Below, piece by piece: positions 1,434 to 62,108 of a DNA stretch of 64,000 nucleotides. The first letter of the stretch is position 1; every line of letters starts with the position of its first letter. The notes under the pieces were generated by a model that did no database searches, was not told the DNA's origin, and saw only the letters and a list, made by a program, of their open reading frames with translations. The position numbers and the translations under genes were made by a program. The DNA lies in assembly GCA_903865745.1 (NCBI GenBank), contig CAIPKV010000085.1, forward strand, positions 1 through 64,000, given 5' to 3'. The DNA is from an uncultured Verrucomicrobia subdivision 3 bacterium (lineage in GTDB: Bacteria > Verrucomicrobiota > Verrucomicrobiia > Limisphaerales > UBA11358).

Positions 1434-4400
1434 ATGGAACCATTTGTCCGCCCTGAATCCCTCCGGAGCTGTTGGCTAAAGGCTGCAGTGCTCGGGCTGG
1501 CCTTGATGTTGTTGGGCTGTGGCGTCGGGGCGCAAACCACGGCGAACCAGTTTGAGGTGGGTGCCAATGGCGTGGCTGACCCGCTGGTCAATTATTTGAC
1601 GCAGATTTATGCCACCAATTTTATTAATGGTGCCAACGGCCAGTTCTCACGGTTCGGCTTCAATTACTATACCGGTGCGCCGAACTGGCTGGGAGCGCTG
1701 TATCATAACTGGTATAACACAGTTAACTTTACGAACGTGGGCGAGCTGGATTCTGTAACCGGTTTTAATGTGGACACCCAGCCGTGGCCATATTCCCCGG
1801 ATCGCGCGGCCGCCAGCTTTTATAACATTGGCAGCATTAATTGCGGTACACAAACCAATGCCATTTACCTGTATCAATATGGCTTCACCTATATTGGGGG
1901 AATTTATTCTGGTGGCTACGGTGGTTACGGCGGGCTTAATGTTTGGGCCAAGAATATATTCTCCGGCAATAATAGCGCCATCAATCTCGGACCGAATGGC
2001 CTCGCCCGATTCGGGGGTAACACCGTAGTTTTCAGCAACACAGCTGTCAGTATCGAGGGGTCATATGCCATCGGGCGAAATGCCTCGGAGTATGCCAATG
2101 TTTCCGCCATCGGTCAGGCTGCCTATAATACCAATGGCTGGTATATCGGGGGCCTGAACCCGTTTTCAGCTTATGCTCCCCTGAATTCCTCGCCCGGCAG
2201 CATTGATTTGTTCCCGGCGGTTTCGTACTACCAGCAGGGTGGTAGTTCTTCCAATATTTTAGTGCGAATGATTTTTCTGGAAGATAATAGTCTAAACGTT
2301 ACCACTAATGTCTATATTGGTGGTGCTGGATTTTTCACCAATGGTGCGGGGACGGTCGAATGGGTGGGTACTTACACTAACCCGGTAACCGGTCAGGCCA
2401 GTACTCGTTACCTATACCTGAATAATAATTATGAACAGAGTGGCACCACCAACCTCTTGAGTTACGGTGATCCCGGCACCGGTGTGCCTGCCAATTTTGT
2501 TATTTATCCTTCGGACACCAAAATCAGTCTGGGTACTCCGCTCGTTAGCGCCTATTATCCCAACTTGGACGTGAATGACACCATCACCAATAATATTTAC
2601 TCCTACGTTGATGCGCAGTTTATCCCGACTTCGGTCCAGCTTAACCCTACTGGTGCCGGTGCGATTGCTTTAACTAACATCCCGGGGCGTATCGAAATCA
2701 CCGCCAGCAACGAATTGAATCTTTCCAAGGCCAGCTTTGCCGGCATGAACTATCTCCGGCTCAACAGCCCCAACCAGTTTGACTATGATGGTCGGGACCA
2801 GATTGCCGCGCCGTATGCGGACTTTTATCTCGGCAGCACTAACGGCAGTATGGCTATCACCAATTTGATTGAGCCCTCACTGCCCGTGTGGAGCGGCAGT
2901 TTGCAGGCATATTCCACCCGTTGGGGCTATACCAACGCGGGCATCAACTATGACTTCCGGGTGCTGCTGGTGCAGAGCCAGCTTAGTCCCGTCACGCCAT
3001 CTTCAGTCCAAGACTTTGTGCTCTACAGTTCGAACAACGTTGTTATCAGTGATGATCTCAATATCACGCGCACTTTCTCACTGAACTGTACCAATCTGCT
3101 GCTGACGACCAATGGTATTGGTGTCGGCGCTGGATCGCCGGATGGGGAACTAAACTTGGGTTTAGGCGTGACTAACTGGCAATACGCGGTGCCTCGGTTA
3201 AGCTGTCTGACTAATAATGGCGCCATTCGTATGTATTCGACCCCTGCTAACTTTGGCAGTCTGTCCACTCCGTATCTGGCACTGTTCAACACCGGACGAA
3301 TCAACAACGGTGGTAATATTTTTATTTTCTCAGGCGACCTCGAAAATTATGGGACAATTGTTGCTAGCGCTGGCTCTTTCACCGCCCAGACGCTAACCAC
3401 TACGATGACCAACGCGACGCTTCAGGCTACCACACCCGTTAGCTTGGCGGCCTCTAATTTGGTAATCAGCGGAACCTCGATTCAGTCCGGCAATTCGCTG
3501 ACGTTGGTAGCTACCAATTTGCTAACCGACAATGGCGTCAATAGCAGTAATTTTTGGTCGCTGGGAGTGAATGATACCAGTTATGGCTATTCTCAGGGAT
3601 TGAACCTGCCCCTCAAGCCGGCTTATGGCGACCTGCTCGGCACGACCATCACCAATCTTGCGCCTGTGGCCAACTCAATTGTCTATAATACTTGGGCGGG
3701 TCAAGACCGCGGATATTCGGTAGCCGGCTACCAGAATAATGCTGCCATTGGCCAGTTGGTGTTGGATGCCGTGACCAACACCACCCAGTTCTATTTTACG
3801 GGTACCAGTAGCGACGGCACCACTAATGCCATTTATGTTGACCGTCTAGTTCTCTTGGACTCGGCCGGATATTATGGTCTGGTAAATAGCGGCTATTTGC
3901 CGGGGTTAAATTTTAATACTAATCTGGTCATCTATTACGCCGAAGCAATCGACCGGAATTACGGTTCGGTGGCGGAAAAAATCAACGGGCTTAATGACAA
4001 CCATCTTCGCTGGGTGCCCAACTATGCTGGTCACTTTAGCTCGACCAATATTGTTTATCCAAATGGGACGACTAACTCTGTAAATGCCCCGCTGGCCAAC
4101 GCCTCAGATATTGATTCCGACCGCGACGGTAATAATAATTCTACTGACCCAACGCCCGTCTTGGTTCCGTCACAGTTAAACTTTACCTTGGCAGTGACCA
4201 ATGTGCCACCGTTGACTGCCCGAATTGGTTGGCGGACCATTCCGCTGGCGGGCAATTCCATCTACTATTGCACCAATTTGGCCACCACCAACTGGCTACC
4301 GTTCACCAGCTTCAGCAATTATTTTTATGGACCCGGCATCGCTGTTCCCAATCCGGCGCAGACCAACTACTTTGTTTCGCCGCAACCGTATGACGACACC

Positions 4401-4499
4401 CAGTCACCCGCGGATAACTGGGAAGCGACTAATGTCTGGGTGCTGGATCCGCTGACGAATTCGGTCCATTTTTACCGGATTGTGGTTCAGCCAAACTAA
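1434..4499 (+). CDS. Large secreted Thr/Asn-rich protein
   Basis: 1021 residues starting at an ATG 3 nt after the preceding stop. The N-terminus has a basic stretch and a hydrophobic core ending LMLLGCGVGAQ. This fits either a lipoprotein signal (LLGC lipobox) or a type I signal peptide cleaved near GAQ, so the protein is exported. The body is rich in TN, NNY and G-G-Y segments with no enzyme motif I recognise. Near residues 895-905 there is an acidic DSDRDGNNN segment like the calcium-binding thrombospondin type 3/dockerin-like loops that often precede C-terminal domains in such proteins. The last 100 residues contain an IYYCTNLATTNWLPF segment of the kind found in verrucomicrobial C-terminal modules. 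Probably in one operon with its neighbours. Precise function unknown. Confidence 0.75.
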   Translation: MEPFVRPESLRSCWLKAAVLGLALMLLGCGVGAQTTANQFEVGANGVADPLVNYLTQIYATNFINGANGQFSRFGFNYYTGAPNWLGALYHNWYNTVNFTNVGELDSVTGFNVDTQPWPYSPDRAAASFYNIGSINCGTQTNAIYLYQYGFTYIGGIYSGGYGGYGGLNVWAKNIFSGNNSAINLGPNGLARFGGNTVVFSNTAVSIEGSYAIGRNASEYANVSAIGQAAYNTNGWYIGGLNPFSAYAPLNSSPGSIDLFPAVSYYQQGGSSSNILVRMIFLEDNSLNVTTNVYIGGAGFFTNGAGTVEWVGTYTNPVTGQASTRYLYLNNNYEQSGTTNLLSYGDPGTGVPANFVIYPSDTKISLGTPLVSAYYPNLDVNDTITNNIYSYVDAQFIPTSVQLNPTGAGAIALTNIPGRIEITASNELNLSKASFAGMNYLRLNSPNQFDYDGRDQIAAPYADFYLGSTNGSMAITNLIEPSLPVWSGSLQAYSTRWGYTNAGINYDFRVLLVQSQLSPVTPSSVQDFVLYSSNNVVISDDLNITRTFSLNCTNLLLTTNGIGVGAGSPDGELNLGLGVTNWQYAVPRLSCLTNNGAIRMYSTPANFGSLSTPYLALFNTGRINNGGNIFIFSGDLENYGTIVASAGSFTAQTLTTTMTNATLQATTPVSLAASNLVISGTSIQSGNSLTLVATNLLTDNGVNSSNFWSLGVNDTSYGYSQGLNLPLKPAYGDLLGTTITNLAPVANSIVYNTWAGQDRGYSVAGYQNNAAIGQLVLDAVTNTTQFYFTGTSSDGTTNAIYVDRLVLLDSAGYYGLVNSGYLPGLNFNTNLVIYYAEAIDRNYGSVAEKINGLNDNHLRWVPNYAGHFSSTNIVYPNGTTNSVNAPLANASDIDSDRDGNNNSTDPTPVLVPSQLNFTLAVTNVPPLTARIGWRTIPLAGNSIYYCTNLATTNWLPFTSFSNYFYGPGIAVPNPAQTNYFVSPQPYDDTQSPADNWEATNVWVLDPLTNSVHFYRIVVQPN

Positions 4500-4581: not shown

Positions 4582-7500
4582 GTGAATACGATACTGAATA
4601 AAATTGCCGGCTTCTTGCCGTTAGGTCTGCGGGACAGCGCGGTCTCGCTAAAGCTGGCATTGTTGCTTGGATTGCTACTTGCCGCCGGAATGGCTGGCGC
4701 GCAGCCGGCCAATGATAACTTTACCAATGCTTGGGTCATTACCGGGCAATCTGGAACGACTAATGGGGACAATACTTTTGCCTCTTTGGAGTCTTGTGAA
4801 AATAACATTGTTAATAGCACAGAATTTGGTCCTGAGGCGATTACAAATACTGTTTGGTTTGCGTGGACCGCCACCGCCACTGGAACTTTGGAAGTCAATA
4901 ATGCCGGAAGCGCCAATGTGGATTTTGTACTGTCGGTTTGGACGAGCACTAATACTATTCCTACAATTTGTGATGGTAGTTTGACTAATATATTAGCGGA
5001 CGATGGTAATGGGGGTATTAGTCAACTAGACTTCTCGGTGGTTGCCGGAAAAACTTATTACATTTCACTATCTAGCTACGATGATGGTACTTCTCCAAAT
5101 GATAATGTGGGACCTTATGTTTTGAACTGGAATCAGTCCATTTCCCAATTTTCCAGCGGAAGCTTTCAGCTTTCCTCAGGCAATTATCTCGTTAGCGAGA
5201 GGGATTCCCAGAGTCCAAATGTTGCATATGATGGTAATACAGTTGATCCCAGTCTACTTGGGGCTCGAATAACGATAACCCGCCCGGCTCCAGGTTACGG
5301 TCGCGTTTTAGTAGATTATTCGGTTACAGATCCTGGTTATACCAACCTCATTATTACTAACATAACCGCGACCACCATTACCACGACATACAAATATCAA
5401 TATTATTATAATGGTCAATATTACAACTACACGCCTCCTGACTTGGTGGTTACCAATAATATGGGACTACCAGCCGGTATAACAATTTTCACTAATGTGG
5501 TGCCTGCATCAACGGACTTTACGCTGGTGACAAACACCGTTTCTTTTGACAACTATCAGTTGGGTCAGGATGTGTTGTTACCCTTAGTACAAAGAGGCGA
5601 GACAATTTCAATTTCAAATCAAACCTATCATTTGCCTGGAATGGCTGTAGTTACGCTATCCAACCCGCGGCCCGATCCGCAGGAGCCATCAATCTTAGCT
5701 CCGCCAACATTAAGCTTATCCTTAACTTCGGCAATTGTTAATACCGCCAGCACCACCTTTCCACAACCATCCGGCTCGCTTGGTTTAGCTTATTTAAATC
5801 TAGAGCGATCAACTTTTCGGGTAGATAAAGATGTATATAGTGGCAATGCTGTAATAAATGTAATCCGTACTGGTGGAAAGGCTGACCAGAGTATTTCTGT
5901 TGATTATATTATAGATCCAACCCCAGGAAACGGACTGACGCAGTATAGTCCCGCTAATACTTTCCCATTGCAGGCAGGTTCAGATTATGCCACGAAAAAC
6001 AGTGATTTCACGCCTGTAAGTGGAACTTTAACATGGGCGGCGTACGATACCACCCCCAAAATTATATCAATTCCAATTATCAACAATAGCAAGGTGGAAC
6101 AAAATGAAGACTTTTTGGTAAAGTTATACTTCCAGCCGAGTGAACAACACAATAACGAACAGGTTGGAGAAGTAAACCAAGCTAATGTTACCATACTTTT
6201 TGATGATACAGATGGTAAGCAGCAGCCAGCTGGAGCCTTGGATAGGACTTGGAACCAGAATGGGGTTAAATACTCTAATCCACCGTATCTGCCATATCCC
6301 GGCACTGCTGGTGGTGGTGGCACGGTTTATGCCGTGGCCGAACAGCCAGATGGTAAAGCAATTATTGCCGGAAGTTTTACTTCCTTTGATTCCCAACTTT
6401 ATAATCGCATAGCACGGGTTTTGAACAATGGCTTTCAGGATACGAGTTTTCTTGCTTCTCCCAATAGCGGGGCTAATGACTTCATCTCATCGCTAGCCTT
6501 GCAGCCAAATGGTAAAATTCTAATAGGCGGTAATTTTACCTCTTTTAATGGTTCTCCCCGCTATCATATCGCCCGTTTAAACAGTGATGGCTCCGTGGAC
6601 TCCACCTTCAACCCAGGCTTCGGCGCAAATGGCACGGTTTGGTGTATGATACTTCAGACTAATGGACAGGTGGTAATAGGTGGCAGTTTTACCTCTTATA
6701 ACGGAACTAATGTAAATAAAGTAGCCCGGATAAATGCTGATGGCTCGTTAGATACAACTTTTAATCCGGGGACCGGCCCAAATGATACTGTTAATGCTGT
6801 TGCAGTGGATTCCAGTGGGCGGGTCATTATTGGTGGCAGTTTTGATTCGGTGGCCGGCGTAAGCAACGGAGGCATATCCCGCTTAAATGTAGATGGCTCT
6901 TTGGATACTACTTTTACAGCAGGCATCGGCACCTATAATCCGGATTCAGATTCGACAGATCCAGTTTATGCCATAGCCGTACAGTCGGACGGAAAGATAT
7001 TGATTGGTGGTAGTTTCTCGTTTTTGGATTTGATTAACTATAATGGTTTGGCGCGATTGAATTCCGATGGGACCATCGATTTAAACTTTAAGCCGGGAAC
7101 CGGCACCTTGAATCCCGTTACGGGTCTAGCGGACACGATTTATAGTGTGTTGTTGCAAACTAACAATGAAATACTGATTGGCGGTGATCTTACTACCTTT
7201 AATCAAACCAGGCGAATTGGGGTGGCGCGGCTTTTTGGCGATGGCACCGTAGACACCAGCTTCATGGACTCAACTTATAATCAGTTTGCTGGATTGCCTA
7301 ATCAGTATTTTAATTCTCAGGCAGTATCAACCAACTATCCATACTATAACACCCGTAATGCAGTTTATGCCTTGGCACAAGAGGCTGGAGGTAATGTGAT
7401 TATAGGTGGTATCTTTCCGTGGGTGGGTGGCGGATATACGTACGATGATATTCGACCACGGAGTAATGTGGCCCGCTTGGTTGGCGGTTCAACACCTGGT

Positions 7501-10500
7501 CCGGGTAATATAGAATTTTCTTATGGTAGCTATTCTGTTAACAATAGTCAGGGCAGCCTCTACGTATCTTTGGTTCGCACTAATGGTAATTTGGGTATCG
7601 TATCTGCTACGTTTACCACTAATACCGATGGTACTGGTGCGGGAATTGCCAGTGGTGAAGATTTTTCGTTAAACCCGATTTATTCCAGCCCGACTTGGAC
7701 GACGGCTTGGTCTCAAAACGCTTGGATGTATGATGTAGGGGTTACAGGTCCTAATTACAACACAACTCCAGTGAATACGACTCAGGCTGATGTTTATGTC
7801 GGGGTTACCAACAGCGGTAATATTACCGGAAATCTCAGTGCGAATTTTAAGTTATCTAACCCAATCGGTAATTTCTCCTTGGGTGGCGAATACATTTCAC
7901 TGGGTGCAGCGCTGGGAGCTCAGGCGGCTGCCCCGTTGACTATAATTGATACAAGTATTAAGCCCGGGGTGCTTGGTTTCAGTTCGCCGACATATTCCGT
8001 GGTTCAAAATAGGAGCGTAGCTACAATAACGGTAACGCGTACCAACGGAAGTGATGGCATCGTTACCGTCTGGTACGCAGTCAGTAACGGTACTGCAACC
8101 AACGGAGTAGACTATACGGTGACAACTCCAAATCAACTTACGTTTGCAGTTGGCCAAACGAACGCGACTTTCACTATTCCCACCAAGAGTGCGACAACAA
8201 TACATCCGGATAAAATAGTTAATCTGCAGTTGTTTTCACCAGCCGGTGGGGCGACCTTGGGTCTCACTAATGCCATTTTAAATTTAATCAATGGTGTTTA
8301 CACATATGGTCATCTTGAGTTTTCTGCTGCGAATTATACGGTTAACGAAAACGGCGGGGCGGCAGTGGTTACAATTAATCGAGTGGGCGGCAGCACGGGA
8401 ACCCTAAATGTGACGATGATTACAGCTGATCAAACCGCAATTGACGGCACAAATTACATTGGCATAAGCACTAATTTGCAATGGAACAGCGGAGATGCTT
8501 CACCTCGAAATATCACTATTCCCGTTTTGGATGATGGGGTGGTGACGCCAAACTTAGTGGCTAATTTGCTGTTGACCAATTCATTCGTTAATACCACAAA
8601 TAATGTGGGGCCACTATCATTTGGTAACACCAATGCAACGCTGACTATTAACAATCTAGATTCTGCGGGAAGCGTTCAATTCAGTACATCATCCTATTCG
8701 GTTAAAAAATACGGAGGTTACGCCCTTATACCGGTCATTCGTACGGGAGGTTCTATCGGTACGGTTACGGTCGGTTACACTACGATTGACGGCTCGGCTC
8801 AGTCCGGTTCTAGCTATACCACAACTGCCGGCACCTTAACATTTAGTAATGGGGTGGTCAGCCAATCATTTTTGGTGCCGATAACAAATAACCCAGCCGT
8901 TACAGGCTTAGTATCATTGACGTTGCAGCTGAGCCCGCCTACTGGATTAGCCACGCTTGGCACACCCAATGTGGCTGTCTTGAATATAATTGATGGTGAT
9001 TCGGTTGATGAGACGCCTGGGTTACCGGATGTTACTTACGGCAGTGCAGTTAATGGGTTCAATGCTCCGGTTTATTGTCTGGCACTTCAGACAAACAATC
9101 GACTGATTGTCGGTGGTGATTTTACATTGGCAGACGGCGTCTATCGTCAACGTATAGCTAGGTTAAATGATGATGGTACCTTAGATTCTTCTTTCTTATT
9201 ACCATCCTCCACTATTGGTGCAGATAATTCAGTCCGAGCAATTGCCATTCAGTCTGATGGACGGGTTTTGGTTGGTGGAAAGTTCACAAATATGAACAGC
9301 CAAGTCGTTAATGGTATTGCTCGCCTTAATTATGACGGCACCTTGGACAGTTTGTTTAACGTTGGTTCCGGTGCTGACAGTCCAATTTATGCTTTGGCAC
9401 AGACTTTTGTAAACGGCAACGCGGCAATATTGGTGGGCGGTAGCTTTGCACACTTGGACGGCCAGCCGGCCAACTGCATTGGTCGCTTGACGGGCACTGG
9501 TTCACCCGACCCCAGCTTCAATACCGGAAGTGGTGCTAACGGAACTATTTATGCCCTCGCGGTTCAAGCAGATGGCCGGGTAATTATTGGTGGTGACTTT
9601 ACAGCCGTGAACGGAGTTTCCGTGGGTCACATTGCCCGTTTAAATTTAGACGGTTCAGTGGACCTTACATTTACCAACGGCACGGCTAATGATTCCGTGC
9701 GGGCCATTGCCATTCAGTTGGACGGTCAGATTCTCGCTGGCGGTCTATTCACCAGCGTTAATGGCAACACCAGCTATAACCACATCGTCCGGCTCAATAG
9801 TGCAGACGGATCCCCGGACAGTACTTTCAACCCGGGCCTAAACATTATTAGTCCTGGGCCAAATAATTCCGTCTTCAGCATTGCGGTGCAGACCGATGGT
9901 CGCATTGTTGTGGGGGGAACTTTCACTCAGGCGAATGGTGTAACCCGTAACCGAATTACCCGGTTAAATGCCAATGGTACAACTGATCCTACCATCAACT
10001 TTGGTGTGGGGGCTGACAGCTTTGTGGCGGCGATTGCAGTTGAAGAATCGACCATTGCGTCTTACCCCCCCAATGTGCCGGATGAAAAAATCATCATTGG
10101 CGGAGGATTTCTAAACTATTTTGGTGCCCCACACCCCTATCTAGCTCGCATCTATGGCGGTTCCGAGGGCGGTTCCGGGGCCTTCACCTTCTCCTCGGCT
10201 TTTTACGGCGTGAATGAAAACGGTACGAATGTAGTCATCACGGTGGAACGTACCGGCGGCACAAGCGGCACCAATGCGGATGGCTCTGGCAGCGTCTATG
10301 TTACCTTCGCTGCTACCAACGGGACAGCACAGGCTGGTGTAAATTATACTGCCGTTACCACCAATTTGAATTTTCCGATGGGTGAAGTTCTGGAAACGGT
10401 CACCATACCTGTGATGGATGACAACGTTATTTCAAACGATCTGACAGTTAACCTGTCATTGAACCCCACCGCACCTGCCCAATATGGTGATCAACCAACA

Positions 10501-12933
10501 GCCTTGCTGACAATTACCAATGTGGATAGTGCCATCAATTTCCAATTAGCTAATTATCAGGTCAATAAATATGCCAGTAATGTTTTGAATGGCTTTGCGC
10601 CCATATATATCAACCGCCTTGGCGCAACTTATGGTACTTCCACTGTCGTCTTTAACACCTCAACCAACGGAACAGCGACGCCCGGGTTAGATTATTTGGC
10701 TCAGACTAATGTGGTCGTAACGTTTGAGCCCGGCGTATCCAACGAACAGGTGAATATACCCATAATTAATGGTGTATCTGATGGAAATACCACTGTTGGC
10801 CTGCAGTTAACAAATGTCACGGGATCGGTGCTTTACAGCCCGTCCAATGCGGTGCTGACCATTCTGGATCAGACTCTGGCTAATGGTAGCTTCGCCTTTT
10901 CTGCCACCAACTATGTGGTTAGCGAAGGTGGCGGTTCTGGTTATACCAACGCTACAATCACTGTTTTGCGAACCAATGGTGCTTCGGGTATTGTGACGGT
11001 GGGCTATCAGACCGCGGATGGTTCGGCAATCGGTGGGGCAAAATATGTTCCCACCAGCGGCACTCTGACATTCGGTGACGGTGTGTTAAGCCAGAGTTTT
11101 GTGGTGCCGGTCATCAACACCACAACTATTGAACCCACCGAAAATTTCTCGGTTATCCTCACTAATCCCACCGGTGGCAGTAGCTTGGGGGTTTCGTCGA
11201 ATGCTAGCGTGACCATTTTGAATACCAACATTGGTGTTATGTTTGCTTCAGCCACCAATACATTCATCGAAACGCAGCCGTTTGCCACCATAAACGTAGT
11301 GCGCTACAACAACACTCAAGGTACCAGCACCGTAAATTATTCGACAACCAACGGTACGGCCTTAGCTGGAACTAACTACACCACTACCAGTGGCACATTG
11401 ATTTTCAACAATGGTGCTGCTCAAGCCGCCATTCTCATTCCACTCATTTATGACACGAATGTGACGGGTAATTTGCAATTTACAGTTGGACTGGCCAGTG
11501 CCAATCCCGGGGTGCAAATTGGGACGCCCGGAGTTAGTACCATAGTTTTACAGGATGCCGATGCCGGTATAAATTTCAGCACCAATGCTACCACCGTTCT
11601 AAAAAACATTGGCAGCGTGCTTATCACTGTCCTCTGTTCCAATACCAATGTTGAGCCTGTCTCGGTTAATTATGCTACCACGAATGGTACGGCTACGGCT
11701 GGCACGGATTACACGGCTGCCAGCGGCACCCTGACCTTCAGCAACGGAATCGCCACCAACACCTTCTCAATTCCGATAAGTAATAACAGTCTTGTTAACG
11801 GTAGTCGCTACTTTAATGTTGTGCTGTCGAACCCGACTAGCACAGGACATTTGATTTCACCGAGCCAACAGACGGTGACCATTGCCGACAGTAATTCCGG
11901 CATTAGCCTTTCTAGTTCAACTTACTCGGTGTACAAGACCCAAGGTGCGGCGGTTATAACGGTTAATCGAACCGACAACACCAACATCATTTCTACGGTA
12001 AACTTTGTTGCCACCAATGGCACGGCGGTTAACGGGCTCAACTATTACGCCACTAACGGCACTTTAGTCTTTACCAACGGTGTCACCAGCCAAACTTTCA
12101 GTATCCCCATCATTGCCACCACCAAGGTTCAGCCGGATTTAACTGTACAGTTGGCACTGTCAAATCCCACGAACGGAATTCTGCTTGCACCGACGGCGGC
12201 TACCCTGACCATCCGCGACAACACGGGTAGCTTTGTCATCCCGGCCGGTTCTCAAATGATTACCAATTACACTTCCCTGTCTGACTACACTAACGGCATC
12301 ATCGGCTCCAATGACATGGTGCAGGTACTATTCGCCTTGCGCGACGCTGCGGCGGGTAATGTCAATAATCTGGTTGCGACCTTGCTGGCTACCAACGGGG
12401 TAATCAGCCCAACGCCGGCGTCACAGACTTACGGCCCGCTGACTTACCATGGTCACTCGGTTTCCATGCCGTTTACGTTCACCGCCCGTGGCACCAATAA
12501 CCAGCAGATTGCCCCTACTTTCAATTTGCAAGACGGCACTACCAACATCGGTACGGCGATTTTCAGCTTTATTTTGGGCAGCACGACCACCGTTTTGTCT
12601 AATAACGCTGTCATTATTATTAATGATGACGCTGCCGCTTCCCCTTACCCGTCCGTCATCAATGTCAGTGGTGTGGGCGGTTCATTAATTAAGGCCACCG
12701 TGACGCTGAACAAGTTTGCGCACACCGATCCACATGACGTGTCTGCCCTCGTAGTGGCTCCGGCTGGTCCCAATACCTTGATTATGTCTCATGCCGGCGG
12801 TCATGGTTACGGGGTCACAAATCTGGTGCTAACCTTTGATGATGCCGCTACCAATAGCCTGCCGTTTGTTGGCGCCATCACCAATGGTACCTATAAGCCG
12901 ACCGCAACTAATCCGCCCGCTAAATTTCCCTGA
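4582..12933 (+). CDS. Giant Calx-beta/delta-60 repeat surface protein, C-terminal P domain cut in half
   Basis: About 2783 residues. The GTG at 4582 is chosen because GGAG lies 7 nt upstream and because it places a signal peptide at the start (hydrophobic LALLLGLLLAAG, cleavage near AGAQ); the longer frame from 4480 overlaps the previous gene and adds no signal. Domains in order: a PPC-like domain (about 42-195); a Calx-beta-like region (405-545); a block of delta-60 beta-propeller-type repeats with (I)IGG-F and ARL-DGS-D-F motifs (550-967); about four Calx-beta domains (970-1480); a second delta-60 block (1487-1863); six more Calx-beta domains (to about 2545); an unassigned domain; and a P-type domain first half (2687-2783). 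Calx-beta domains normally bind calcium. The P domain stops after its TYKP strand, and its missing half appears in the next gene. Likely a surface adhesin (inference). Confidence 0.85.
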   Translation: MNTILNKIAGFLPLGLRDSAVSLKLALLLGLLLAAGMAGAQPANDNFTNAWVITGQSGTTNGDNTFASLESCENNIVNSTEFGPEAITNTVWFAWTATATGTLEVNNAGSANVDFVLSVWTSTNTIPTICDGSLTNILADDGNGGISQLDFSVVAGKTYYISLSSYDDGTSPNDNVGPYVLNWNQSISQFSSGSFQLSSGNYLVSERDSQSPNVAYDGNTVDPSLLGARITITRPAPGYGRVLVDYSVTDPGYTNLIITNITATTITTTYKYQYYYNGQYYNYTPPDLVVTNNMGLPAGITIFTNVVPASTDFTLVTNTVSFDNYQLGQDVLLPLVQRGETISISNQTYHLPGMAVVTLSNPRPDPQEPSILAPPTLSLSLTSAIVNTASTTFPQPSGSLGLAYLNLERSTFRVDKDVYSGNAVINVIRTGGKADQSISVDYIIDPTPGNGLTQYSPANTFPLQAGSDYATKNSDFTPVSGTLTWAAYDTTPKIISIPIINNSKVEQNEDFLVKLYFQPSEQHNNEQVGEVNQANVTILFDDTDGKQQPAGALDRTWNQNGVKYSNPPYLPYPGTAGGGGTVYAVAEQPDGKAIIAGSFTSFDSQLYNRIARVLNNGFQDTSFLASPNSGANDFISSLALQPNGKILIGGNFTSFNGSPRYHIARLNSDGSVDSTFNPGFGANGTVWCMILQTNGQVVIGGSFTSYNGTNVNKVARINADGSLDTTFNPGTGPNDTVNAVAVDSSGRVIIGGSFDSVAGVSNGGISRLNVDGSLDTTFTAGIGTYNPDSDSTDPVYAIAVQSDGKILIGGSFSFLDLINYNGLARLNSDGTIDLNFKPGTGTLNPVTGLADTIYSVLLQTNNEILIGGDLTTFNQTRRIGVARLFGDGTVDTSFMDSTYNQFAGLPNQYFNSQAVSTNYPYYNTRNAVYALAQEAGGNVIIGGIFPWVGGGYTYDDIRPRSNVARLVGGSTPGPGNIEFSYGSYSVNNSQGSLYVSLVRTNGNLGIVSATFTTNTDGTGAGIASGEDFSLNPIYSSPTWTTAWSQNAWMYDVGVTGPNYNTTPVNTTQADVYVGVTNSGNITGNLSANFKLSNPIGNFSLGGEYISLGAALGAQAAAPLTIIDTSIKPGVLGFSSPTYSVVQNRSVATITVTRTNGSDGIVTVWYAVSNGTATNGVDYTVTTPNQLTFAVGQTNATFTIPTKSATTIHPDKIVNLQLFSPAGGATLGLTNAILNLINGVYTYGHLEFSAANYTVNENGGAAVVTINRVGGSTGTLNVTMITADQTAIDGTNYIGISTNLQWNSGDASPRNITIPVLDDGVVTPNLVANLLLTNSFVNTTNNVGPLSFGNTNATLTINNLDSAGSVQFSTSSYSVKKYGGYALIPVIRTGGSIGTVTVGYTTIDGSAQSGSSYTTTAGTLTFSNGVVSQSFLVPITNNPAVTGLVSLTLQLSPPTGLATLGTPNVAVLNIIDGDSVDETPGLPDVTYGSAVNGFNAPVYCLALQTNNRLIVGGDFTLADGVYRQRIARLNDDGTLDSSFLLPSSTIGADNSVRAIAIQSDGRVLVGGKFTNMNSQVVNGIARLNYDGTLDSLFNVGSGADSPIYALAQTFVNGNAAILVGGSFAHLDGQPANCIGRLTGTGSPDPSFNTGSGANGTIYALAVQADGRVIIGGDFTAVNGVSVGHIARLNLDGSVDLTFTNGTANDSVRAIAIQLDGQILAGGLFTSVNGNTSYNHIVRLNSADGSPDSTFNPGLNIISPGPNNSVFSIAVQTDGRIVVGGTFTQANGVTRNRITRLNANGTTDPTINFGVGADSFVAAIAVEESTIASYPPNVPDEKIIIGGGFLNYFGAPHPYLARIYGGSEGGSGAFTFSSAFYGVNENGTNVVITVERTGGTSGTNADGSGSVYVTFAATNGTAQAGVNYTAVTTNLNFPMGEVLETVTIPVMDDNVISNDLTVNLSLNPTAPAQYGDQPTALLTITNVDSAINFQLANYQVNKYASNVLNGFAPIYINRLGATYGTSTVVFNTSTNGTATPGLDYLAQTNVVVTFEPGVSNEQVNIPIINGVSDGNTTVGLQLTNVTGSVLYSPSNAVLTILDQTLANGSFAFSATNYVVSEGGGSGYTNATITVLRTNGASGIVTVGYQTADGSAIGGAKYVPTSGTLTFGDGVLSQSFVVPVINTTTIEPTENFSVILTNPTGGSSLGVSSNASVTILNTNIGVMFASATNTFIETQPFATINVVRYNNTQGTSTVNYSTTNGTALAGTNYTTTSGTLIFNNGAAQAAILIPLIYDTNVTGNLQFTVGLASANPGVQIGTPGVSTIVLQDADAGINFSTNATTVLKNIGSVLITVLCSNTNVEPVSVNYATTNGTATAGTDYTAASGTLTFSNGIATNTFSIPISNNSLVNGSRYFNVVLSNPTSTGHLISPSQQTVTIADSNSGISLSSSTYSVYKTQGAAVITVNRTDNTNIISTVNFVATNGTAVNGLNYYATNGTLVFTNGVTSQTFSIPIIATTKVQPDLTVQLALSNPTNGILLAPTAATLTIRDNTGSFVIPAGSQMITNYTSLSDYTNGIIGSNDMVQVLFALRDAAAGNVNNLVATLLATNGVISPTPASQTYGPLTYHGHSVSMPFTFTARGTNNQQIAPTFNLQDGTTNIGTAIFSFILGSTTTVLSNNAVIIINDDAAASPYPSVINVSGVGGSLIKATVTLNKFAHTDPHDVSALVVAPAGPNTLIMSHAGGHGYGVTNLVLTFDDAATNSLPFVGAITNGTYKPTATNPPAKFP

Positions 12934-12965
12934 GCAGCGGCAGGCTGACCTGAACCAATAATTTT

Positions 12966-15434
12966 ATGAGTAAGTTTTTTTTGAAGACGGGTCTCGGAAT
13001 GATTGCCTTTGCTGGCTTGACACTGGTAGCCATGGCAGCTATGCCGGAAAACTTTAAACCACTCCGCGGTCATGTGCCATTGGTGGTCTCTCAGCTCTCG
13101 CCTTTGGGTCGGCTGAATGCCACCAACCGGCTGCACCTTTCAATTGGTCTTCCCTTGCGCAATTTGGAGGGTTTGACGAATTTGCTAAAGCAGATCAATG
13201 ACCCGGCCAGCCAGAATTATCATCATTACTTGACCCCGGAGCAGTTCACGGAGCAATTTGGCCCTACCCCGGCGGATTATCAGTCAGTGCTTGATTTTGC
13301 CCGGACCAATGGTTTTAACGTGACACATACCCACGGCAACCGCATGCTCCTTGGGGTGGAAGGCATGGTTTCGGATGTGGAACGCTCGTTCCATGTTGCC
13401 CTCCACACCTATCACCACCCTAAAGAATCTCGTGATTTCTTCGCTCCCGATACCGAACCAACTGTGGACGCCCGTCTGCCAGTATTGTCGGTTCAAGGGT
13501 TGAATAATTATATTCAGCCACGGCCAATGCTGCACAAAAAACCAGCCTCCGTAAGCTCGCCGGCGAATGGGACAGGTCCTTTCGGCAGTTACTTGGGTTC
13601 GGATTTTAGGACGGCTTACGCCCCGGGTACGACCTTGAATGGGGCCGGCCAGATGGTTGGTCTTTTGCAATTTGATGGTTACTATCCAAGTGATATTGCT
13701 ACTTATGAAACCCTGGCCGGTTTGACTAATAATGTCCCGCTGATCAATGTTTTGCTGGATGGCTACGATGGCACGCCTGGACCGGGAAATGATGAAGTCT
13801 GTCTGGATATTGAAACATCCATGTCGATGGCGCCTGGTCTGGCGGCCATTGTCGTTTTTGAAGCGGGACCCTATGGCAATCCCAATGACATCCTCAGCAG
13901 CATGGTTGCTAGCAATCAAATTAAACAATTCAGTGCTTCTTGGGGTTATAGCATTGATCGCACCACCGAGCAGTTGTATCAACAGCTGGCCTTGCAAGGC
14001 CAGACCTTCTTGAACGCCTCTGGGGACGGTGATGCTTGGCTCGGTGCCATTCCCTACGGATCCTGTGAGGATCCTAATATCACCATAGTGGGCGGCACCA
14101 CCTTGACGATGAATGGCCACGCTGGTTCTTATGCCTCAGAAAAAGTCTGGAATTGGGGCAATGTTGGCGATTATGGCTGGAACCCTGATGGCTTTGCCGG
14201 TAGCAGCGGCGGTATCAGCACGGATGTTCTGATTCCGAGCTGGCAATTAAACGTTACCAACAATTCTCCGGTTAACCATGGTTCGACAACTTATCGCATG
14301 GTCCCCGATATCGCCCTGACGGGCGACAATGTGTTTGTGGTTTCTAGCGGCGGCAATGAGGGTGTTTTTGGTGGTACGAGTTGCGCTTCACCCCTATGGG
14401 CGGGGTTTATGGCGCTCGTCAATCAGCAGGTCGCGTTAAATGGTAAGCTGCCCATCGGCTTTTTGGCTCCGCAGGTTTATGCCCTCTCAAAAACCGCCGC
14501 CTATACAAACATTTTCCATGACATCACCATCGGTAACAACTATTGGGATCAAAGCCCGACTAACTTTCCCGCCGTGGCCGGCTATGATTTGGGCACAGGT
14601 CTGGGTACGCCCAACGGTACTAATTTGATAAACGCTTTGGCGGGAGCCGCCAGCACCACGCCGCCGAGCATTTCCGCCCCCTCACGGCCGTGGGGTAGTA
14701 CCCTTTCTGTGATGAATGGCAGCAACCCGAACGGCGATTGGTTTCTGTTTGTGCAGGACGATGTGACTCCTGACAGCGGGATCATAAACGCCGGCTGGTA
14801 TCTGACGCTTACCACCGCTTACCCCGTTGGCTATGCGGCGGATAATCAGCTTTACTTGAGTTCCTCCATAACTAACACCACGCCGGGCACCTTTTGGCCG
14901 GTTTCCTTGGCTGTTACTAATTATGGACCCTCTTCCTCTACCAATGTTTATGTCACTGACACATTGCCGCAGCCCGGTGCTGGCGTTACCTTGGTTTCTT
15001 CTAATTTGACCGCCGGTACGGTGTCCATCTTTGGCCAGACGCTGACTTGGTCAATTGGTAATTTACCCATTAACACTGGTGCCAGCCTGACTCTCAATTT
15101 CTACGCTGCCACCAACGCACTCAACCTTTACACCAATAGCGCCACGGTCTTTGCCACCACGAGTGATCCCAACCCGGATGATGATGCTGGCCTGATCACA
15201 CTCTTAGTTTCCGGTGCACCTTCTTCCCCGCCTCAGTTGACGCCTGGCTACAATCCCGCGACCGGTGCGTTCCAATTGACAGTAACCAGCCCCGCCGGCG
15301 AACCTGTAATTGTCCAAGCCTCGACCAATTTAGTCAGTTGGTTCCCGATTTCCACCAATGTGGTGCCCTTCACCAATTCTTACGCTACCACCAACTATCC
15401 GGAGCTATTCTATCGCGCGGTGGTTGGTCCGTAA
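12966..15434 (+). CDS. Sedolisin (S53, kumamolisin-like) protease fused to half P domain and DUF11
   Basis: 822 residues. A signal peptide covers about 1-26 (hydrophobic, ending AMAAM). A pro-kumamolisin activation domain follows (about 35-180, with NYHHYLTPEQF). The S53 catalytic domain (about 200-565) has all expected residues: E277 and D281 in ExxxD (EVCLD), oxyanion D354 in SGDGD, and S472 in GGTSCASP. The calcium-site region ends DLGTGLGTPNG. Such enzymes are acid-stable secreted serine-carboxyl peptidases. After NALAG the frame continues without a stop into a P-domain second half (about 571-618: PWGSTLSVMNG, NPNGDW, VQDD, GWYLTL). A DUF11-like domain (619-752) and a C-terminal VIVQASTNLVSW module complete the protein. 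This tail is the expected continuation of the upstream protein rather than of an S53 protease. No clear ribosome-binding site precedes the ATG. Confidence 0.9.
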   Translation: MSKFFLKTGLGMIAFAGLTLVAMAAMPENFKPLRGHVPLVVSQLSPLGRLNATNRLHLSIGLPLRNLEGLTNLLKQINDPASQNYHHYLTPEQFTEQFGPTPADYQSVLDFARTNGFNVTHTHGNRMLLGVEGMVSDVERSFHVALHTYHHPKESRDFFAPDTEPTVDARLPVLSVQGLNNYIQPRPMLHKKPASVSSPANGTGPFGSYLGSDFRTAYAPGTTLNGAGQMVGLLQFDGYYPSDIATYETLAGLTNNVPLINVLLDGYDGTPGPGNDEVCLDIETSMSMAPGLAAIVVFEAGPYGNPNDILSSMVASNQIKQFSASWGYSIDRTTEQLYQQLALQGQTFLNASGDGDAWLGAIPYGSCEDPNITIVGGTTLTMNGHAGSYASEKVWNWGNVGDYGWNPDGFAGSSGGISTDVLIPSWQLNVTNNSPVNHGSTTYRMVPDIALTGDNVFVVSSGGNEGVFGGTSCASPLWAGFMALVNQQVALNGKLPIGFLAPQVYALSKTAAYTNIFHDITIGNNYWDQSPTNFPAVAGYDLGTGLGTPNGTNLINALAGAASTTPPSISAPSRPWGSTLSVMNGSNPNGDWFLFVQDDVTPDSGIINAGWYLTLTTAYPVGYAADNQLYLSSSITNTTPGTFWPVSLAVTNYGPSSSTNVYVTDTLPQPGAGVTLVSSNLTAGTVSIFGQTLTWSIGNLPINTGASLTLNFYAATNALNLYTNSATVFATTSDPNPDDDAGLITLLVSGAPSSPPQLTPGYNPATGAFQLTVTSPAGEPVIVQASTNLVSWFPISTNVVPFTNSYATTNYPELFYRAVVGP

Positions 15435-15443
15435 TTGGGTCGC

Positions 15444-16058
15444 ATGAAACTCTGCGGTTTGACCGGCGGCGTTGGCATGGGCAAATCCACCGCTGCCGGT
15501 TTCTTTTCCCGGCACGGTGCCCGTGTCGTGGACACTGACGAGATTGCCCGCCAGTTAGTCCAGCCCGGTCAGCCTGCGTTGGCTGAAATCTGCGAGCATT
15601 TTGGTCCCAAGGTTATTGCGCCGGATGGCCGCCTCCTCCGCGACCAGTTGGCGCAAATAGTTTTTGCCGACTTGAAAGCCCGCCAGCAACTTGAAGCCAT
15701 CCTCCACCCGCGCATCCGCGCCGCTTGGCTCGCTCAAGTGAAAGCTTGGCGCGCTGCGCCAAAGCCAAGCGACGGCGGGCCGCTGGAAAATTGTGCGCTC
15801 GCCATCGTTGTCATCCCTCTGTTATTTGAGACCGCCGCCGAAAGTCAGTTTGACAAAATCATCTGCGCAGCCTGTTCACCGGCTACGCAGCAGGAACGTC
15901 TGGCCGCGCGTGGTTGGTCGCCCGAACAGTCCCGTCAGCGCATCGCCGCGCAGTTGCCTGTCGAACAAAAAATCGCGCGCGCCCATTTTGTCTTGTGGAC
16001 GGAAGGGAAATTGACCGCTCACGCGCAGCAGGCCGCCCGCGTTTTAAGCCGGATTTGA
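15444..16058 (+). CDS. coaE: Dephospho-CoA kinase
   Basis: 204 residues; phosphorylates dephospho-CoA at the 3'-hydroxyl of its ribose in the last step of coenzyme A synthesis (cytosolic). The Walker A loop is GGVGMGKST at residues 8-16. Further family segments are DTDEIARQLVQPG, LHPRIRAAW and VVIPLLFET. The ATG at 15444 is preferred over the in-frame TTG at 15435 because it gives the canonical N-terminus MKLCGLTGG. It begins 9 nt after the stop of the surface-protein block, so it could be the last gene of that transcript. A short insertion in the middle (PKPSDGGPLENC) is longer than in most family members. A clear terminator follows at 16191. Confidence 0.95.
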   Translation: MKLCGLTGGVGMGKSTAAGFFSRHGARVVDTDEIARQLVQPGQPALAEICEHFGPKVIAPDGRLLRDQLAQIVFADLKARQQLEAILHPRIRAAWLAQVKAWRAAPKPSDGGPLENCALAIVVIPLLFETAAESQFDKIICAACSPATQQERLAARGWSPEQSRQRIAAQLPVEQKIARAHFVLWTEGKLTAHAQQAARVLSRI

Positions 16059-59367: not shown

Positions 59368-60345
59368 ATGCCCCCAACCCTGGCTTACGCGGTCAAGGCG
59401 CGCAAAGGAAAACCCCGGCTCAAAACGGCGCTCCTCACCTCGCTCCTGGCCCCGTCTGCGCAAACGGGCGTGCGTGACCTTAACCTGGCTGAAAAAATGG
59501 TGGCTTCAAAAATCTACCGCGATTACGAATCGGCCTTTAGCAGTCTCACGGGCATGCCGCTGGCTTTTCAACCCGTCGACTCGTGGCAGTTGCCGCACCA
59601 TGGCAAACCCGATGAAAATGCCCTGTGCCGCTTGATGACGGAGAAAAGTGGTTCGTGTTCATTTTGCCTGCAGGCGCATGACCAGCTCAACCGGCTGGCG
59701 CTCAAGAAAGCTAAAACGATGACCTGCGCCCTGGGGCTTTCCGATTCCGCAGTGCCGGTGCGTCTGAATAACCGCGTGATTGGTTTCTTTCAAGTCGGCC
59801 AGGTATTCCGGACCAAGCCGACCGCCAGACAATTTAAAAAAGTCCTTAAGCTGGCCAAGCAGCTGGGGATCAAGGCGCGCCCCGCCACCCTGAAAAAAGC
59901 GTTCTATTCCGGCCGCGTCCTCACCCCGGCCAAATATGCGGGCGCAATCAATCTGCTCAAAGTTTTTGCACAACATCTGGGGTCATTGAGCCACCAGATT
60001 TTCATCCAACAGAATGTAGCGGAGCTAAAAGTCATCACCAAAGCGCGCACTTACATTCACGATCATCTGACCGACCAGATGAAGCTGGGCGAGGTGGCCC
60101 GGGCCGTGAACATGAGCACTTTTTATTTCTGCAAGACCTTCAAACGCTATGCCGGCATTAATTTTACCGATTATGTCTCCCGGGTGCGCATCGAGAAAGC
60201 CAAGAACCTGTTGTTGAATCCCAATCTCCGGGTTAGCGAAATCGCCTTTGAAATCGGGTTCCAGTCCCTCACCCATTTCAATCGCCGGTTCTATACCCAC
60301 GTTGGCTTATCCCCCTCAAAATACCGCGAGCAATTGGCGCATTAA
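59368..60345 (+). CDS. PocR-domain AraC-type transcriptional regulator
   Basis: 325 residues. The N-terminal part (about 40-190) is a PocR-type sensory domain: SKIYRDYESAFSSLTGMPLAF, ALCRLMTEKSGSCSFCLQAH with a Cys cluster (CxxxxxxxxCxxC), TMTCALGLSDSAVPV, VIGFFQVGQVF. The C-terminal 100 residues hold two helix-turn-helix motifs of the AraC family (MKLGEVARAVNMSTFYFCKTFKR and VSEIAFEIGFQSLTHFNRRF). Probably binds a small ligand through the PocR domain and activates genes; targets unknown. A Lys-rich segment (KPTARQFKKVLKLAKQLG) joins the halves. It stands alone next to the restriction-modification cassette. Confidence 0.9.
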   Translation: MPPTLAYAVKARKGKPRLKTALLTSLLAPSAQTGVRDLNLAEKMVASKIYRDYESAFSSLTGMPLAFQPVDSWQLPHHGKPDENALCRLMTEKSGSCSFCLQAHDQLNRLALKKAKTMTCALGLSDSAVPVRLNNRVIGFFQVGQVFRTKPTARQFKKVLKLAKQLGIKARPATLKKAFYSGRVLTPAKYAGAINLLKVFAQHLGSLSHQIFIQQNVAELKVITKARTYIHDHLTDQMKLGEVARAVNMSTFYFCKTFKRYAGINFTDYVSRVRIEKAKNLLLNPNLRVSEIAFEIGFQSLTHFNRRFYTHVGLSPSKYREQLAH

Positions 60346-60387
60346 ATAGCCGGGCAACCCGGCGCCTGTTTTTTCTGCTGGTCACTT

Positions 60388-60478
60388 TGTGAAATCCGGG
60401 TCTGACTCTCGTTGGAAAGCCCACTCGAGCCGCTGGACCATTTATTTAGTTTGTACCCGAAGTCAGTTCTCATTCTAC
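60388..60478. repeat. Left imperfect direct repeat flanking the restriction-modification cassette
   Basis: The core 60414-60478 (GGAAAGCCC ... CGAGCCGCTGG ... TTTATTTAGTT ... GTACCCGAAG ... CTCAT) aligns without gaps to 62241-62305 with about a dozen differences in 65 nt. The segment before it (GTGAAATCCGGGTCTG, 60389-60404) is also related to 62551-62566 (GTGAAATTCGGGTCTG). Confidence 0.75.
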
Positions 60479-60546
60479 TTGTAGTGAAAAATCTTCGAAG
60501 TTCACTTGGCGATTTTTGCAAAATCATCTAATGTCCTCATAGCTAA

Positions 60547-61500
60547 ATGCCAAAACAGTTTTCCATTGCTCAGAAATTTACTCCCGACGCACGTGCGGTA
60601 CTTCATGAAGGCGATTGTTTGGATATGCTCCGAGCTATTCCAAACGAGGCTATCCAACTGATTGTCACCTCACCGCCTTACAATTTGGGCAAGGAGTATG
60701 AGGCAAAACTTCATGTGGATGTTTACGTTGAAGAGCAAAGAAAGGTCATCACGGAATGTTTTCGCGTATTGGCTGACGGAGGAAGTATCTGCTGGCAAGT
60801 GGGAAATTTCGTCGAGGACGGGGCAATTATACCGATCGATACTTTGCTTTACCCTATTTTTTCTGGTTTGGGATTGAAAATGCGCAATCGGATAGTCTGG
60901 CATTTTGAACATGGATTACACTGCTCTCGCCGTTTGTCGGGGCGTTATGAAACAATCATTTGGTTTACGAAAGGGGACAAATACGTATTTAATGTTGATC
61001 CGATCCGAGTGCCGCAAAAATATCCCGGCAAGAAATATTTCAGGGGACCAAAGGTTGGTCAGTATTCTTGCAATCCACTTGGAAAAAATCCCGGGGATGT
61101 TTGGACGGTACCAAATGTTAAGAGCAACCACGTAGAGAAAACTGGACATCCCTGCCAGTTTCCAGTTGAACTTATCGAGAGGTTGGTTCTGTCACTTACG
61201 CAAGTGAATGATTGGGTTTTGGATCCGTTTCTTGGAACCGGAACATCCATCATTGCTGCTATTCGTAATGGAAGAAGAGGCGTTGGCGCTGAAATTTTGA
61301 GGAAGTATATCGAACTTGCCAAAACGCGAATTAATTTGGCGGCAAATGGTGAGCTTCCAGTTCGCCCAATGGCCAAGCCGGTTTTTGATCCTAAGTATGC
61401 GGGTAAAAACCTTCTTACAGCACCATGGCTGGTTGATGATACTTTACCTGAACAATCAATACTTTTAGAAAAGACTACGCCATACAGAATACGCAAATGA
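60547..61500 (+). CDS. Type II beta-class DNA methyltransferase (BstYI/BglII type)
   Basis: 317 residues. Motif IV TSPPYNLG (residues 40-47) precedes motif I (DPFLGTGTS, near 227-235), giving the beta order. TSPPY suggests N4-cytosine methylation, though N6-adenine is not excluded. AdoMet-dependent; protects the host site from the partner nuclease. Further motifs: HEGDCLDMLRAIPNEAIQLIV and GAEILRKYIELAKTRI. Its TGA overlaps the ATG of the endonuclease gene by 4 nt. The pair is visibly AT-richer than its neighbours and uses A/T-ending codons, indicating transfer. Direct repeats flank the pair. Confidence 0.92.
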   Translation: MPKQFSIAQKFTPDARAVLHEGDCLDMLRAIPNEAIQLIVTSPPYNLGKEYEAKLHVDVYVEEQRKVITECFRVLADGGSICWQVGNFVEDGAIIPIDTLLYPIFSGLGLKMRNRIVWHFEHGLHCSRRLSGRYETIIWFTKGDKYVFNVDPIRVPQKYPGKKYFRGPKVGQYSCNPLGKNPGDVWTVPNVKSNHVEKTGHPCQFPVELIERLVLSLTQVNDWVLDPFLGTGTSIIAAIRNGRRGVGAEILRKYIELAKTRINLAANGELPVRPMAKPVFDPKYAGKNLLTAPWLVDDTLPEQSILLEKTTPYRIRK

Positions 61501-62108
61501 AAATCGTTCAGACATACTCACACTTGAATGGACTAGAATATTTGCTGGTTCATAAAAAGAAACTGTGGCAACAAGTTCAGGAAGTGATCAAATCCGTCGA
61601 TGCCACTGCCTGTAAGACCAAGATTAGCAAAGAAAAGGGCATGGTGGGGGATGTTCTTTTTAGTCCGATTGACATGAATTCTGCCTTTTCAAAGTTACTA
61701 AAAGATTATCAATGGAAAGAAAGCCGGGTAAACTATTGGGTAACACAAAACGAAAAGCTCATTCGCCAGACAATTACAAAGACAGCCGAACAACAGAAAG
61801 CTGAAATTGAGGCCGCTGGTGAGGTTCCCATCTTTAGCTATAACCAGACCGATTTTGTAAAAGATCGTGTAGCCATTGAAGTTCAATTCGGTAAATATGC
61901 TTTCGTTGCATACGATCTATTCGTAAAACACCTCGCATTTTATGTTCGTGACCAGATTGATGTCGGGATAGAGATTCTCGCCATGAAATCTCTGCAATCC
62001 CAAATGTCCTCCGGTCCTGGTTACTACGAAGGCGAGCTTTACAACATAATCCGCAATGGCCGTGGCGTTCCAGCCGTGCCCTTGGTGATTATTGGCGTAG
62101 AACCCTGA
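61497..62108 (+). CDS. BstYI/BglII-family type II restriction endonuclease
   Basis: 203 residues. Begins MKIVQTYSHLNGLEYLLVH and carries NQTDFVKDRVAIEVQFGKY, which holds the BglII-type catalytic cluster D119 ... E128-x-Q130 (BglII D84, E93, Q95 with the same spacing). SSGPGYYEGELYNIIR and PAVPLVIIG complete the family signature. Close relatives cut RGATCY (BstYI) or AGATCT (BglII); the BstYI-like length and motifs favour RGATCY, but specificity is inferred. Coupled to the methyltransferase by an ATGA overlap with the methyltransferase first, which favours methylation before restriction on entry to a new host. AT-rich. Confidence 0.93.
   Translation: MKIVQTYSHLNGLEYLLVHKKKLWQQVQEVIKSVDATACKTKISKEKGMVGDVLFSPIDMNSAFSKLLKDYQWKESRVNYWVTQNEKLIRQTITKTAEQQKAEIEAAGEVPIFSYNQTDFVKDRVAIEVQFGKYAFVAYDLFVKHLAFYVRDQIDVGIEILAMKSLQSQMSSGPGYYEGELYNIIRNGRGVPAVPLVIIGVEP

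Follow-up and report, generated by a model that had tools for sequence, protein, structure and literature searches.

Among certain uncultured bacteria of lakes and bogs, a P domain is broken in two: a giant secreted protein stops after two thirds of the domain, and the last third is encoded on the following gene, where it is fused to a protease. We consider it probable, if well short of certain, that this state arose by insertional fission and that the two halves now re-assemble, docking the protease on the giant. The stretch analyzed here, which we call the window, comprises 64,000 nucleotides of contig C85 in the 87-contig genome G000. Relatives whose named records hold the same arrangement are metagenome-assembled genomes, mostly labelled Verrucomicrobia subdivision 3 or Limisphaerales.

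Layout of the locus and identity of the two halves

The genes concerned and their parts are as follows, in window coordinates:

4582-12933, plus strand: giant secreted protein, 2783 aa, with DUF5122/delta-60 propeller repeats, Calx-beta repeats and, terminally, the N-terminal part of a P domain (open reading frame and Pfam)
12643-12930, plus strand: P domain N-terminal part (P_N), 96 aa, ending in KFP before the TGA (alignment to unbroken and split relatives)
12934-12965, plus strand: intergenic gap between the giant and the second gene, 32 nucleotides
12966-15434, plus strand: second gene, 822 aa, with signal peptide, S53 protease, P domain C-terminal part, DUF11 and C-terminal module
12966-13043, plus strand: signal peptide, about residues 1-26 (by eye)
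13104-13508, plus strand: pro-kumamolisin activation domain PF09286, residues 47-181 (Pfam)
13590-14639, plus strand: S53 catalytic domain, residues 209-558 (kumamolisin match and alignment)
14670-14819, plus strand: P domain C-terminal part (P_C), residues 569-618 (weak Pfam match and alignment)
14853-15191, plus strand: DUF11 domain, residues 630-742 (Pfam match at 639-742)
15207-15431, plus strand: C-terminal module, ..STNL..W..FYRAV.., residues 748-822
15444-16058, plus strand: coaE-like gene (named from reading the sequence, without a family search)

The coding part of the giant runs from 4582 to 12930, with its TGA stop at 12931-12933, and Pfam recognizes ten Calx-beta and 13 DUF5122 stretches in it. 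The second gene starts with an ATG and a signal peptide of its own and reads on past its S53 domain without a stop; the match of this domain to kumamolisin (1t1e, E 1e-35) reaches residue 558-567, about nucleotide 14640. In these respects the first-pass annotation of the window was accurate: it had described a 2783-residue protein ending midway in a P domain, and the missing half, with DUF11 and the C-terminal module, at the end of an S53 protein with its own start and signal peptide, whose protease domain ends near 14640 with no stop. Both open reading frames are as it described; Pfam and alignment bear out the transferred tail, and alignment and profile the truncated N-terminal half.

The coaE-like gene begins 9 nucleotides past the second gene, and it comes after the tail in split loci. 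On the other side, a gene of 1021 aa (window 1434-4499) with zero Pfam matches lies upstream of the giant, as it does in many split loci. Elsewhere in the window, G+C falls to 0.46 and 0.43 at 60001-62000, against about 0.55 around.

Taken alone, the P_N of the window has no Pfam match. Its P_C matches positions 47-85 of PF01483 at residues 575-614 (E 0.007), with 16.8 bits against a family cut-off of 21; the unbroken P domain of G233, a genome of the same genus, reaches 25.1 bits, above this cut-off. We recognized P_N by alignment to unbroken P domains and by a profile built from these together with the split halves; with this profile, 60 of 64 loci score 71-142 bits. The AlphaFold model of an unbroken homologue (L122) is a confident P fold (pLDDT 94.2) and superimposes on the furin P domain with Z 13.0 and 1.7 Å over 113 residues. 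In the alignment the halves are exactly complementary: unbroken domains read ..FP-APAPAGPYG.., and split ones read ..FP followed by the stop on one gene and ..SAPxPPYG.. on the other. Because the junction sequences match up in this way, almost nothing was lost at the cut. A search of both proteins for an intein or split-intein family at the break (Pfam at E up to 1; NCBIfam) found none.

Distribution of the split and of the unbroken state

The giant stops at the same P domain residue in all 27 split genomes with a readable giant end, and in each of these 27 loci the domain is spread over two genes instead of forming one continuous polypeptide. The last residues are FP in 26 of them and FH in one (G239); the stop codon is TGA in 26 and TAA in one. 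G010, whose contig begins inside the S53 domain, is excluded from these left-end counts. When 59 relatives were searched with the second protein and the giant end, the matches adjoined, with order kept, in many genomes of the genus. P_C is carried on a protease in 28 of the 49 genomes of the genus, 27 times on an S53 protease and once on a metalloprotease (G035). A tail-only search of the same 49 genomes added G035, with the metalloprotease in place of S53, and G233, whose tail lies within an unbroken giant; weaker matches, at E 5e-13 and above, fall on other parts. Across 320 genomes of the order, a full S53-to-P_C match (1-154/155 of 155 positions, at least 225 bits) occurs in 27, all of the window's genus, and the junction was not found outside it: the next match (159 bits) ends at model position 93 and covers S53 only. 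The split is old and retained in 28 of 49 genomes, and neither a recent event nor one private to a single genome is supported. The split tail was not found in the other 21; the genus can therefore do without the pair.

The recurrence of the arrangement also disposes of misassembly, which the first-pass annotation had named among the results that would overturn its reading. The arrangement is common to 27 assemblies whose left ends go down to about 43% identity to that of the window, and the 18 split stretches checked hold zero runs of N. A single product made by frameshift or read-through might be suggested by the prevalence of TGA as the stop, but the stop-to-start gaps vary without keeping frame, which rules it out, and a separate signal peptide precedes the protease. 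We give next to no credence to an artefact or to a single product. The hexamer ATTTCC, noted earlier at both junctions, is indeed there in the window; an equivalent hexamer is shared in only one of the 27 split loci, the window itself, so that the repeat is due to chance and is rejected as a target-site duplication.

Six other P domains of the genus (L001, L186-L190) are unbroken and no further split one was found, with L002, L191 and L192 giving no usable left match in this check; nor is P_C present on other S53 paralogues in the 17 stretches scanned (L164-L167, L169-L171, L173, L174 and L176-L183; L168, L172 and L175 lay outside the scan). L002 (G000:C71:8424-11567), from the same genome as the window, holds a P-type domain that matches PF01483 at 4-52 only and, by eye, seems to contain an in-frame domain of roughly 230 aa within the same loop. 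This suggests that the P domain loop may tolerate insertions.

Scanning named genomes with the left half gave 64 loci, of which 41 are unbroken in one frame, 21 are split and two (L158 and L160) are unclear. Of note, one unbroken P domain lies on a scaffold labelled Neobacillus citreus (L128) and is 52% identical to the half in the window; the record may be contaminated. An uninterrupted domain, for which alignment to orthologues had been proposed as a check on the split, is present at these 41 loci, and in G233 it occurs at the same locus within the genus. There the upstream gene is followed by a giant whose 3246 aa include an uninterrupted P domain, DUF11 and the C-terminal module, and coaE lies directly behind this giant: this is the empty site. 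Both halves of the G233 domain group with the split clade (100/99 in both trees). Outside the genus, G046 and G047, of other families, have a single unbroken giant directly before coaE. Together with the stops at one residue in 27 of 27 loci, these unbroken relatives bear out the claim of a P domain split by a protease gene, with the tail of the giant now on the protease.

The G233 giant could also be a later re-fusion, in which the protease was lost, instead of the original state. It lies among the rows of clade A, one of the clades of split loci, in the 245-residue left tree and in the tail tree, as re-fusion would have it; the best tree at 563 columns, however, places it outside all split rows, though with weak support (58/30), and the shorter alignments do not reject that position (p 0.36 and 0.50). 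On balance we favor a G233 gene that was unbroken from the start and regard re-fusion as the less likely course.

Another route would start from an ancestor with two neighboring P-domain genes, the first of which lost its end and the second its middle, so that the halves now come from different P domains. Such neighborhoods exist. A giant is followed by a second gene with P domains at L082, L085, L087, L114, L122 and L132; in some other families this second gene stands between the giant and coaE, as in G043, G054 and G057 (L082, L085 and L087), and the G043 version is S53-headed. Kinship of the split tail with the tails of the giants in two-gene neighborhoods is rejected (AU p 0.0058), and kinship with the last P domain of the second gene is not (p 0.217). 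These neighborhoods and kinship tests leave such a reciprocal truncation a small share of probability. Against it, G233 holds both orthologous halves in one protein within the same genus, G046 and G047 also have a single unbroken giant before coaE, and the route requires that separate deletions in two domains happened to stop at one and the same residue; we judge it improbable.

The protease between the halves

The proteases at the split site do not share the history of the P domain halves. In a tree of 64 S53 domains they do not form one group, and the starred branches require three changes or more. Among 26 split loci, a deep 11/15 division is common to the tree of giant ends (99/98) and the tree of tails (100/99); the S53 tree rejects it (AU p 2.8e-89). 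Conversely, S53 groups H3 and H4 are rejected as clades by the left data (p 3.8e-33 and 6.0e-125) and by the tail data (p 3.6e-5 and 1.6e-42), although head types H1-H4 were named after the tree had been viewed, so that these p-values do not test groups strictly fixed beforehand. By parsimony there are 11 and 12 head changes, on trees that are themselves poorly resolved; the supported 11/15 division forces only the presence of H3 and H4 on both sides, plus one metalloprotease. G032 is an example: its left half comes closest to that of G012, and its S53 domain to those of G232, G005 and the window.

The metalloprotease of G035, left out of the S53 trees (as the partial S53 of L123 was left out of trees), takes the position of S53 and is joined to an identical arrangement of half domain and tail. 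It is of metzincin type, with a match to Reprolysin_3 (E 7e-6) and the motif HEVGHNLGLHH, which we take to be the metzincin zinc motif; domains resembling it (33-37% identity) occur in other large proteins of the genus. In the split clade that we call B, the gap between the genes measures 31-34 nucleotides in 14 of 16 split loci, and most loci share a signal peptide of the type MSKxFxK..G.LA whichever protease follows; a similar one, MHNVFVKTIFGLLAV, stands ahead of the G035 metalloprotease. Since gap and signal peptide recur with differing heads, the exchanged part lies between the signal peptide and P_C. Both halves and, in this one clade, the signal peptide stayed in place while the protease between the halves was exchanged repeatedly, once for a metzincin-type metalloprotease. 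It follows that today's S53 protease need not be the one first inserted.

Membership of the S53 family is supported by the pro-kumamolisin prodomain, the kumamolisin match and residues E277, D281, D354 and S472, the Glu/Asp/Asp/Ser catalytic set of S53 (kumamolisin/sedolisin) proteases. All four are invariant in the 20 aligned second genes, and for this reason the protease is probably active. Its role can be guessed at: it may serve in feeding on protein or in maturing the giant. As a separate observation, the giant of G009 (L063, G009:C43:9500-27500), an open frame of 3685 aa, itself starts with an S53 domain.

Putative docking and comparison with known systems

Conservation is higher in the two halves than in what adjoins them. 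Mean pairwise identity is 0.61 for P_C, a level that few other parts of its protein reach, against 0.44 for DUF11 and 0.46 for the C-terminal module, and 0.57 for P_N against 0.54 for the preceding Calx part; the linkers at the cut are at about 0.20. The glycine/tryptophan/PNG core of P_C is invariant in 20 aligned genes. Judged by conservation, both pieces appear to be under purifying selection.

In the L122 model the cut falls at residue 110, in the loop between strand 96-99 and turn 122-125, and the P_C part supplies strands 132-140 and 153-160. When the second protein of the window was modelled alone (AlphaFold on the 822 aa, 20 rows, a single chain, mean pLDDT 72.5), residues 561-622 had pLDDT 30-37 and zero secondary structure; other stretches of this model are weak as well, so that the weakness of P_C is not unique.

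Correlations of evolutionary distances also associate the two halves. Among pairs of seven segments, P_N and P_C have the highest correlation (0.57), which remains at a partial r of 0.56 given coaE, with none of 2000 permutations as high; P_C and S53 correlate at 0.05, and the same measure in unbroken P domains gives 0.47. With the Calx part cut in two (27 loci), P_N-P_C at 0.56 is barely ahead of CalxB-DUF11 at 0.55. Clade B gives 0.55 for P_N-P_C and 0.13 for P_C-DUF11, with CalxA-CalxB higher at 0.64, and clade A only 0.22 for P_N-P_C. The pair ranks first in 215 of 500 subsamples. Given its weakness in clade A, the near tie and this last count, we take the signal of co-evolution as suggestive only.

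From these data we infer the following course of events. A secreted-protease gene would have inserted, without a stop codon, into the P domain of the giant Calx-beta/propeller protein, in the loop preceding the last two strands. From then on, two secreted proteins would have shared the domain: the giant would carry its first strands, and the protease its last two together with the giant's old tail, DUF11 and the C-terminal module. Both proteins would be exported, and P_C, unstructured alone, may fold onto P_N outside the cell; this would complete the beta-sandwich, dock the protease on the giant and return the tail to it. The docking site would be constant and the protease head exchangeable.

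It may also be that the fission is real and the halves no longer meet, P_C being retained only as a spacer, or for stability, between the protease and its secretion or anchoring tail, and P_N being a harmless stump. DUF11 and the C-terminal module alone could account for retention of the tail, and the giant of G239 has lost its final proline, with FH for FP. However, stump and spacer are better conserved than the adjoining domains while the linkers at the cut have drifted, the P_C core is invariant, and the metalloprotease version retained the same P_C. To us a loss of contact is rather doubtful, and re-assembly of the halves is the reading we retain.

The locus might be seen as a natural, evolving tag-and-catcher: the unfinished beta-sandwich of the giant would be a socket, and the missing strand pair a plug acquired by unrelated families of secreted proteases, so that the surface enzyme could be replaced with the dock unchanged. 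On this wider reading we are evenly divided. Engineered split beta-sandwich domains such as SpyTag/SpyCatcher work through a short strand segment at the end of one protein, which completes the domain of a partner with a covalent link. The likeness lies in a strand segment on one protein completing a domain on another; those pairs are engineered and covalent, whereas the present one is natural, putative and presumably non-covalent. The P domain of furin/kexin type (PF01483; in bacteria, for example, the Aeromonas sobria protease, 3hjr) has the same fold with a weak sequence match. It forms one piece beside an S8 catalytic domain, whereas that of the window is divided between two proteins, one of which has an S53 domain.

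Our literature search found no report of a split P domain or of a protease docked by one, and no description of an enzyme attached as payload to one of two halves and replaced while the halves remain. Re-assembling split proteins are known mostly from inserted nucleases, organelles and engineering. As far as the published account goes, insertion of homing endonucleases gave genes in pieces in phage Aeh1 (nrdA), phage 25 (DNA polymerase 43A/43B) and the T4 topoisomerase, and the pieces of nrdA and of 43A/43B are reported to work together (PMC2988022). There too a gene inserted in a functional region splits its host gene into two coding regions (PMC2988022); the insert described is a separate nuclease gene, whereas here a secreted protease is fused in frame to the second half, the domain that was split is a surface domain without catalytic function, and the inserted head has been replaced over time. 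In Campsomeris/Dielis wasps, an insertion divided mitochondrial cox2 into two complementary genes, and the products of these apparently pair as a heterodimer (PMC5374615). This is likewise insertional fission into two complementary genes, but in a mitochondrial membrane protein, with an insert of several ORFs between the genes and, in that description, no payload on a half (PMC5374615).

Insertional gene fission with re-assembly is thus the known kind to which our case would belong, and the exchangeable protease payload fused to one half is what is new. A chromosomal insertion appears to have converted a broken domain into a conserved means of docking, in which two or more kinds of protease have used one plug. 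If the halves do bind, the pair would offer a natural, non-covalent strand complementation suited to surface display and would clearly illustrate, in a form open to testing, how gene fission can create a two-part machine.
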